Shown here one piece after another: positions 5,443 to 64,000 of a stretch of 64,000 nt of DNA; the stretch's first letter is position 1, and each line of letters starts with the position of its first letter. The notes under the pieces are model-generated. The model did no database searches and was not told the origin of the DNA. It worked only from the letters and a program-made list of their open reading frames with translations. A program made the translations under genes and the position numbers. The DNA comes from Alphaproteobacteria bacterium. GTDB taxonomy: Bacteria > Pseudomonadota > Alphaproteobacteria > ATCC43930 > CGMCC-115725. Where the stretch lies: contig JAJPHB010000063.1 in the NCBI GenBank assembly GCA_021325525.1, positions 1 through 64,000 of the forward strand, in the 5' to 3' direction.

Positions 5443-5574
5443 CGTCGGAGGATGTCGCCCGGCCCGGCCAAAAGCAAACGTTCCGCACGCGCGCGGCGCG
5501 CAGGGCTCTCATGCCGCGCTTGCGGATTGGCGTCGGCCGCATGGCGCGGAATTGCGATGAATCATGCCAAATTG

Positions 5575-5616
5575 AATCAAAATCAAGATGAAATAGTCTC
5601 GATGTTATTCTTGATT
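5575..5616. promoter_or_regulatory. AT-rich leader with 8-bp inverted repeat upstream of parA
   Basis: The region from about 5550 to 5690 is markedly AT-rich against roughly 70 % GC surroundings. It contains AATCAAGA (5581-5588) and its exact reverse complement TCTTGATT (5609-5616), 20 nt apart. AATCAA is also repeated just before the left arm (from 5575). A TTTATAAAG sequence near 5640 could be a -10 element. The position before a ParA/ribbon-helix-helix pair suggests an operator or parS-like site; this is inference. Confidence 0.45.
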
Positions 5617-5731
5617 GTCGCTGATATTCTCCGGCCTTCTTTATAAAGAGAGCAGGATGAAACCGTATCTTTACAAAGATTCCCCAAGGTCGCGTCCGGA
5701 ATTTGCCTCATGGCGACTTATGGAGGGTCGA

Positions 5732-6442
5732 ATGAAGGTGATCGCGATCGCCTCGCAGAAGGGCGGATCGGGGAAAACGACGCTGGCCGGCCACATCGCC
5801 GTGCAGGCGGAGCGGGTCGGCGCCGGGCCGGTCGCGCTCGTCGACACCGATCCTCAGGGCAGCCTCGCCGAATGGTGGAACGTCCGCCAGGCCGAGACGC
5901 CCGTTTTCGTCGCCACCGGGATCGCGCGCCTCGCCGAGGATTTGCGGCGCCTGCGCGCGCTCGGGATGCGCCTTCTCGTCATCGACACGCCGCCCGCCAT
6001 CGCGGCGACGATCTCGGAGGTCGTCCGCGTCTCCGACCTCGTCATCGTGCCGGCGCGGCCGAGCCCGCACGATCTGCGCGCCGCCGGCGCCACCGTCGAG
6101 CTCGTCGAGAAGCTGTCGCGGCCGCTCGTCTTCGTCATCAACGGCGCGCAGCAGCGCGCGCGCATCACCTCGGAGGCGGCGATCGCGCTCTCGCAGCACG
6201 GCACGCTCGCCCCCTCGATCATCCACAACCGGACCGGCTTCGCCGCCAGCATGATCGACGGCCGCACCGTCATGGAGGTCCCGGGCGAGGCGCGGGGCGC
6301 CGAGGAGATCGCCAAGCTCTGGGAGTATCTCGACGCGCGGCTCGGAGACCAGCGCCGCACCATGCTCGCCGCCGACCCGCTACGCCCGCAGCAACGCCTT
6401 TTCGGCGGCGGCTGGCAGCTGGCACTTCAGGAGTCGCCATGA
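5732..6442 (+). CDS. ParA family partition ATPase
   Basis: The 236-residue protein is a ParA/MinD-type deviant Walker ATPase: KGGSGKTT at residues 10-17 with the signature Lys10, Walker A-prime LVDTDPQGSL near residue 38 and Walker B LLVIDTPPA near 85. Such ATPases position DNA or protein cargo on the nucleoid. The start at 5732 was chosen because GGAGGG sits 4 nt before it and the motif falls at the usual distance from the N-terminus; in-frame ATGs at 5615, 5657 and 5720 lack this. No ParB is present; the partner is the overlapping ribbon-helix-helix gene. It is an orphan ParA, so chromosome segregation is not the only possibility; positioning of a protein cluster is equally open. Confidence 0.9.
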   Translation: MKVIAIASQKGGSGKTTLAGHIAVQAERVGAGPVALVDTDPQGSLAEWWNVRQAETPVFVATGIARLAEDLRRLRALGMRLLVIDTPPAIAATISEVVRVSDLVIVPARPSPHDLRAAGATVELVEKLSRPLVFVINGAQQRARITSEAAIALSQHGTLAPSIIHNRTGFAASMIDGRTVMEVPGEARGAEEIAKLWEYLDARLGDQRRTMLAADPLRPQQRLFGGGWQLALQESP

Positions 6443-61896: not shown

Positions 61897-62817
61897 ATGG
61901 CGGCCGGGCCTGCGGCGGGAGCGACCAGCTTCCAGTCGATCATCCTCGAATTGCAGCGCTATTGGGCGGCGCAGGGTTGCGTCATTCTGCAGCCCTACGA
62001 CCTCGAAATGGGCGCCGGCACCTTTCATCCGGCGACGACCTTGCGGGCGCTCGGCCCCGAGCCCTGGCGCGCCGCCTATGTCCAGCCCTCGCGGCGGCCG
62101 ACCGACGGCCGCTACGGCGAGAACCCGAACCGGCTGCAGCATTATTACCAGTTCCAGGTCATCCTGAAGCCGGCGCCCGCCGACAGCCAGGCGCTTTATC
62201 TCGGCAGCCTCGCCGCGATCGGCATCGATGCCGGCCTCCACGACATCCGCTTCGTCGAGGATGATTGGGAGAGTCCGACCCTCGGCGCCGCCGGGCTCGG
62301 CTGGGAGGTCTGGCTCGACGGCATGGAGGTGAGCCAGTTCACCTATTTCCAGCAGGTGGGCGGCCTCGAATGCGATCCCGTCTCGACCGAGCTCACCTAC
62401 GGGCTCGAGCGCCTCGCCATGTATGTCCAGGGCGTCGAGAGCATCTTCGATCTCGACTTCAACGGCGCGCCCGGCGCCGGCCGCATCACCTATCGCGACG
62501 TCTTCCATCGCGCCGAGCGGGAGTTCTCCGCCTTCAATTTCGAATACGCGAACACCGGCAAGCTCTTCGAGCATTTCCGCGACGCCGAGGCGGAATGTGG
62601 CGCGCTGGTCGCGGCCGGCCTCGCGCTCCCCGCCTATGACCAATGCATGAAGGCGAGCCACATCTTCAACCTGCTCGATGCCCGCGGCGTCATCAGCGTG
62701 ACCGAGCGCGCCGCCTACATCGCCCGCGTCCGGACGCTGGCCAAGGCCTGCTGCGAGGCGTGGGTCGCGGGCGGCTCGGACATGCATCCTCCCCCCAACG
62801 GGGAGAGGGCAGGGTGA
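61897..62817 (+). CDS. glyQ: Glycyl-tRNA synthetase alpha subunit
   Basis: The 306-residue class II synthetase alpha subunit carries the catalytic domain: [36 protein letters not shown] (motif 1 region), [33 protein letters not shown] (motif 2) and [23 protein letters not shown] (motif 3). The last 14 or so residues ([13 protein letters not shown]) are encoded by a CTCCCC-hairpin repeat and differ from the usual family C-terminus, so the stop itself lies in the repeat. It pairs with GlyS to charge tRNA-Gly. Confidence 0.97.
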
Positions 62818-62933: not shown

Positions 62934-64000
62934 ATGCCCGAGCTGCTCCTCGAGCTCTTCACCGAAGAGATCCCGGCGCGCATGCAGGCGCGGGCCGCCG
63001 AGGAGCTGCGCCGCCTCGCTATCGAAAAGCTGGCGGCGGCCCAGCTCCGCCACGGTGAGGCGCGCGCCTTCGTCACGCCGCGGCGGCTGACGCTCGTCGT
63101 CGATGGCCTGCCGGAGGCCCAGCCCGATGTCAGCGAGGAGCGGCGGGGACCGCGCGTCGGCGCGCCCTCAAAGGCGATCGAGGGCTTTTTGAAGTCAGTT
63201 GGTCTCAACTCTATTGACCAATGTGAGATCAGGCGAACTGAAAAGGGCGATTTCTATTTCACATCTTCACTGATCAAGGGCCTACCGATCCAAAGAGCTA
63301 TCGTAGAGGTGCTTGATGAAATAATCGAGGACTTTAGTTGGCCAAAATCAATGAGATGGGGAAACAATAGCTTTCGTTGGGTTCGTCCACTACGCAATAT
63401 CTTGGCTGTTGTTGATGGTGAGGCGCTGACTTTTGAACTCGATCTTAAGCGTGATCTGAAAAGCATTATCGAACCCACAGACCAGGACAAGCTGATTGCA
63501 AACAATAAGACATTTGGCCACCGCTTCCTCGCGCCTGCGCGCTTCGCCGTCACCGGCTTCGCCGATTACGCCGAGAAGCTGCGCGGCGCCTATGTCATCC
63601 TCGATCCCGCGGCGCGGCGGCAGAAGATCGCCGACGATCTGCGCCTCATGGCGCATGGGGAGGGGCTGCGCCTCAAGGAGGATCCGGCGCTGCTCGACGA
63701 GGTGACGGGGCTCGTCGAGTTTCCGGTCGTCCTTTCGGGCGCCATCGACCCCGCCTTCATGGCGCTGCCGCCCGAGGTGCTGACGACGGCGATGCGGGCG
63801 CATCAGAAATATTTCGCCTGCCTCGACAAGGCGGGGCGCCTCGCGCCGCGCTTTCTCGTCATCGCCAACAACCTCACCCGAGATGGCGGCGCCGCCATCG
63901 TCGCCGGCAACGAGCGGGTGCTGCGGGCGCGGCTGTCGGACGCGCAGTTCTTCTGGGACCAGGACCGCAAAACGCGGCTCGAAAGCCGCGTCGAGAAGCT
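62934..64000 (+). CDS. glyS: Glycyl-tRNA synthetase beta subunit (partial, runs off the window)
   Basis: The frame is open from the ATG to the window end (355 codons; the full family is about 700). It begins PELLLELFTEEIPARMQARAAEEL, the GlyS signature, and continues with FVTPRRLTLVVDGLP, PKSMRWG and RWVRPLR, GHRFLAP, VEFPVVLSGAIDPAFMALPPEVLTTAMRAHQKYF and NNLTRD. All expected blocks are in order. Residues about 83-196 are encoded by DNA of 44 % GC with AT-rich codons (63181-63520), unlike the 67-75 % GC on both sides, while the protein stays family-like and in frame. GlyS binds tRNA-Gly for GlyQ. Confidence 0.95.
   Translation, partial: MPELLLELFTEEIPARMQARAAEELRRLAIEKLAAAQLRHGEARAFVTPRRLTLVVDGLPEAQPDVSEERRGPRVGAPSKAIEGFLKSVGLNSIDQCEIRRTEKGDFYFTSSLIKGLPIQRAIVEVLDEIIEDFSWPKSMRWGNNSFRWVRPLRNILAVVDGEALTFELDLKRDLKSIIEPTDQDKLIANNKTFGHRFLAPARFAVTGFADYAEKLRGAYVILDPAARRQKIADDLRLMAHGEGLRLKEDPALLDEVTGLVEFPVVLSGAIDPAFMALPPEVLTTAMRAHQKYFACLDKAGRLAPRFLVIANNLTRDGGAAIVAGNERVLRARLSDAQFFWDQDRKTRLESRVEK
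63181..63520 (+). other. Low-GC in-frame mosaic segment inside glyS
   Basis: Hand count gives 149 G+C in 340 bases (44 %). The 60 bases before have 45 G+C (75 %) and 63541-63600 have 40 (67 %). The transition is abrupt at both ends, near the codons for EGFLKS and FGHRFLAP, both highly conserved places where homologous recombination could cross over. Codon choice inside favours AAA, GAT, ATT, AAT and TTT. There is no stop or frameshift. Confidence 0.85.

Follow-up and report, generated by a model that had tools for sequence, protein, structure and literature searches.

A 330-bp low-GC segment within glyS of an alphaproteobacterium, probably acquired from a distant alphaproteobacterial lineage by in-frame recombination

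The window analysed here, a stretch of 64,000 nucleotides from an alphaproteobacterial genome, ends within glyS, the gene for the beta subunit of the bacterial heterotetrameric glycyl-tRNA synthetase (GlyRS). The gene runs beyond the window to contig position 65075, with its stop outside the window, and its complete product of 713 amino acids matches the PF02092 profile with 633.7 bits (curated cut-off 29.2). glyS is present in the genome as a single copy and is preceded by glyQ, which is 83% identical to its counterparts in the same-genus genome and the nearest family members. The host genome is a 4.79-Mb draft in 172 contigs, some of only ~3 kb, and may be a metagenome assembly. The features of the locus are collected in Table 1.

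Table 1. Features of the glyQ-glyS region, in window coordinates
Feature	Position (strand)	Description	Basis
glyQ, alpha subunit	61897..62817 (+)		host-like sequence and GC content
glyS	62934..64000 (+)	PF02092 at residues 4-568, DALR_1 at residues 599-704	full frame read from L001
Left edge	63165..63200 (+)	conserved KAIEGFLKS, in predicted B2 helix 79-89	codon-level comparison, structure model
Block, probably foreign	63186..63515 (+)	residues 85-194	maximum-score segment, codon usage, identity break, signature residues
B1 H3-S7 loop PKSMRWGNNSFRWVR	63342..63386 (+)	contacts tRNA in E. coli; lies entirely within the block
Extra stretch of ~15 residues, ~170-186	63441..63491 (+)	predicted flexible loop	alignment; pLDDT <50 at 175-179 and 181-183
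Right edge	63507..63545 (+)	conserved TFGHRFLAP, inside the B1 domain	codon-level comparison, E. coli numbering

Within glyS, a block of 330 bp (110 codons) departs from the composition of the gene while remaining in frame: the GC content is 0.74 over residues 1-80, 0.45 over residues 81-199 and 0.69 over residues 200-355, all within one open frame. The initial annotation had described an in-frame low-GC block without frameshift at 63181-63520 (residues 83-196, 44% GC), and our analysis bears this out; the best-scoring low-GC segment of the window (42.7% GC, score 52.5) sits slightly inside those limits, and the residue range and composition given earlier were essentially right. The translation of the block alone matches PF02092 with 73.2 bits. 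Codon-level comparison also agreed with the earlier placement of both edges in highly conserved protein stretches: the codons switch from GCG ATC GAG GGC to TTT TTG AAG TCA GTT on the left (AIEG/FLKS) and from AAG ACA TTT to GGC CAC CGC TTC CTC GCG on the right (TF/GHRF).

Across the window, the GC content of 340-bp segments averages 0.691 (sd 0.040), with a minimum of 0.435 at 63176, overlapping the block. The block likewise ranks first among the low-GC segments of 718 kb of this genome, sampled by stretches, and the runner-up (score 36.6) lies outside any long reading frame; a contig of 2912 bp without any GC (C170 of G000, L102), probably masked with N, was excluded from this later scan. 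At third codon positions, GC3 is 0.45 in the block versus ~0.88-0.89 in the rest of glyS. When the amino acids of the block were held fixed, its synonymous codons lay 15.6 standard deviations from flank usage (z -15.6), and a value as extreme did not arise in any of 20,000 simulations (expected GC3 0.86). In a comparison of 124 glyS genes, 87 of them with high GC3, the within-gene GC3 drop of the window gene (-0.51) was by far the largest, the second largest being -0.35 (residual sd 0.067). Elsewhere in the window, the second strongest low-GC segment (5550-5742; 193 bp, 41.5% GC) is apparently intergenic and lies immediately upstream of a ParA-like reading frame.

We then compared the window protein with its relatives, namely one same-genus genome (G001, with glyS L003) and 37 further genomes of the same family; the block is not common to any of these host relatives. 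In the flanks, window GlyS shares 77% of its residues with L003 and 60-77% with 18 family members, whereas in the block these values are 44% and 40-49%, against an average of 63% among the 18 family members themselves across the same segment. In a sliding comparison, identity drops at ~residue 85 and recovers at ~200. Window GlyS retains 12 of 15 family signature residues in the flanks and only 2 of 16 in the block, where family members keep 11-16 of the 16, with the exception of G009, which keeps 5. The alignment also revealed in the block ~15 extra residues that are absent from the closer family members and occur in some form in several other alphaproteobacterial lineages. Separate phylogenies of the two parts, as proposed in the initial annotation, gave discordant positions: the flanks placed window GlyS as sister to L003 (95*), and the AU test rejected a forced grouping with L049 (p 0.014), while the block stood apart from the supported family clade, next to L049 (97/82), on a short terminal branch (0.43). 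Grouping the block with the host family gave borderline AU values (p 0.065 and 0.073) on just 104 columns. Altogether, the identity breaks, the discordant trees, the lost signature residues and the foreign codons lend good support to the earlier suggestion that a portion of glyS had been exchanged for its counterpart from a lower-GC relative, and we conclude that the block is probably a piece of glyS from a distant low-GC alphaproteobacterium, recombined in frame.

The best matches to the block all come from Alphaproteobacteria, at ~50-55% identity. No relative above this level was found among 385 genomes of the class, further orders, plasmids and phages, and a peptide-pattern search over one genome per species (~85,000 species) returned no closer one. 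The donor would therefore best be read as an unsampled lower-GC alphaproteobacterial lineage. Of the two sources named at the outset, a low-GC relative or an endosymbiont, an alphaproteobacterial relative is thus consistent with the matches, and nothing points to an endosymbiont.

In E. coli GlyS, domain B2 spans residues 66-124 and the second part of B1 spans residues 125-215 (PMC8464048). The block corresponds to ~94-187 in E. coli numbering; it takes in the latter half of B2 and the greater part of this B1 section. The substitutions W150A and R159A in the B1 loop of the E. coli protein abolish charging (PMC8464048); both residues are kept in window GlyS, as W142 and R151, along with K138 and R141 of the same loop. 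The host family mostly has F at the position where the block has W. Window GlyS also keeps the nearly invariant positions of a 28-member alignment, and an AlphaFold2 model of the beta subunit showed a coherent fold (mean pLDDT 90), with values below 50 restricted to two runs inside the extra stretch (Table 1). Like E. coli GlyS (PMC8464048, PMC9908026), the window protein is full length, with the B1, B2, B3, HD and anticodon-binding domains, and retains the key tRNA-contacting residues; unlike it, residues 85-194 would come from another lineage, with ~15 extra residues in B1. Since the loop that contacts the tRNA and the near-invariant residues are retained, the mosaic gene most likely yields a beta subunit that functions in the ordinary way and differs in one additional flexible loop. 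The suggestion that the mosaic alters tRNA recognition or escapes inhibitors found no support for the same reason.

Two other accounts of the block were weighed. An assembly chimera, in which host reads were joined, within glyS, to reads from a low-GC alphaproteobacterium of the same sample and back again, is an unlikely one. The fragmented draft would allow for it, as would the lack of the block in every host relative and the absence of a native counterpart of the block from the whole genome assembly. However, it requires two misjoins at exactly homologous, in-frame sites 330 bp apart, and no further glyS fragment is found in the assembly. Common short-read assemblers require at least ~21 identical bases, whereas the longest exact runs shared at either edge by the host and known homologues of <55% GC are of 12 bases or fewer, not enough to produce a k-mer misassembly, although the true donor may differ from these homologues. 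These short runs disfavour the joining of two genomes that the initial annotation had held out as the alternative. Similar patches are moreover seen in glyS genes from genomes of 1-20 contigs, which argues that patchiness is not peculiar to this assembly.

Vertical descent would make the block native, the product of locally fast evolution and drift to low GC. Variability across the class is indeed higher in this segment than in others, and the grouping with the family was not rejected at 0.05 in the AU tests, yet drift of this kind fits poorly with the fall in GC3 from 0.88 to 0.45 at abrupt edges, with the extra residues and with the short terminal branch in the block tree. Nearly all of the family signature is lost from the segment while the class-wide conserved positions are all kept, and we regard descent within the family as highly improbable.

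For the favoured reading, replacement by recombination, we propose that an ancestor of the host acquired DNA from a remotely related alphaproteobacterium of lower GC content, and that recombination then swapped the matching 330 bp of native glyS with the reading frame kept. Entry would have been by natural transformation, the route that we favour; ComEC is present in the host genome. Gene transfer agents are common in Alphaproteobacteria and package random host DNA, so that an agent of the RcGTA type could have served as the carrier instead, a proposal that differs in the route only. The marker GTA_TIM (PF13547), detected in a Caulobacter control, was not found in the host genome, although it may have been lost later, and the block has no match in phage records; we give this route hardly any credence. 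At the edges, the mean identity between host DNA and homologues of <55% GC is 51% over the 120 bp to the left of the block and 46% over the same length to the right. If the donor resembled these homologues, the identity would be far below the needs of ordinary RecA recombination. Because low-GC homologues are only ~50% identical to the host beside the block, we infer that joining took place through short identities at one end or more, by homology-facilitated illegitimate or microhomology recombination. Integration could also be explained by a donor more similar to the host beside the block than any of these homologues, or possibly by a longer import that was trimmed afterwards by recombination with native DNA.

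Patches of unusual composition or identity were also observed in other glyS genes; they are candidate mosaics, picked out by composition and identity values, and the regression scan for discordant windows proved untrustworthy when close pairs were compared over conserved windows and supplied leads only. The GlyS proteins of two genomes of one genus, G065 (L071) and G289 (L055), are 97-100% identical over ~residues 241-510, and their ends show 20-80% identity and lower GC3; the pair is a strong case of a within-gene mosaic. In the same family as the host, G009 glyS (L016) has a low-GC patch at ~225-285 of its frame, the same segment as the block, where the identity with its closest relative drops from 0.86 to 0.59 and a threefold PLQFVN-type repeat is inserted between SMRW and RWVRP. 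In G304 glyS (L128), a patch at 346-405 has GC3 values as low as 0.40 and is as little as 0.33 identical to L141, its nearest relative, versus ~0.9 along most of the gene. G106 glyS has low GC3 at ~150-270. G404 glyS (L115), from a genome of 3 contigs, carries at ~541-660 an in-frame insertion of ~120 residues with a GC3 of 0.40-0.60 in a gene of ~0.93; an apparent donor match to L136 was rejected as an alignment artefact around this insertion. L068 was likewise considered as a further mosaic over the stretch that the block occupies and was rejected, as its profile gave no support. In Alphaproteobacteria, glyS might repeatedly have received short, very divergent in-frame replacements at identities far below RecA needs, with the stretch ~80-200 hit more than once (in the window, G009, G106 and possibly G065), an idea that we hold as doubtful.

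The window gene is an extreme case of the known subgenic recombination mosaics, being unusually divergent and sharply bounded. As in subgenic lateral transfer (Chan et al., 2009, PMC2639706), a portion of one gene would have been exchanged for the orthologous portion from another lineage, with edges that fall within protein domains and not between them; the survey found that recombination breakpoints show no preference for leaving domains intact (PMC2639706). The present case differs in that the piece is very short, has ~45-50% protein identity and lies 27 GC points off the host. Homology-facilitated illegitimate recombination (PMC3240628), in which foreign linear DNA can be joined when just one of its ends has long homology, would be in keeping with the low edge identity, but its usual outcome is a gain or loss of DNA, whereas the replacement here occupies the homologous site and keeps the frame on either side. 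A search of the open-access literature for mosaic aminoacyl-tRNA synthetases found no directly matching paper. Whole-gene trees of aminoacyl-tRNA synthetases can conceal foreign parts, which a scan of GC3 within the gene reveals. If the mosaic is real, it would show that a housekeeping synthetase tolerates the exchange of portions of two tRNA-binding domains for a piece of only ~45-50% identity, and would provide a natural gauge of the divergence that is tolerated in the in-frame integration of DNA.
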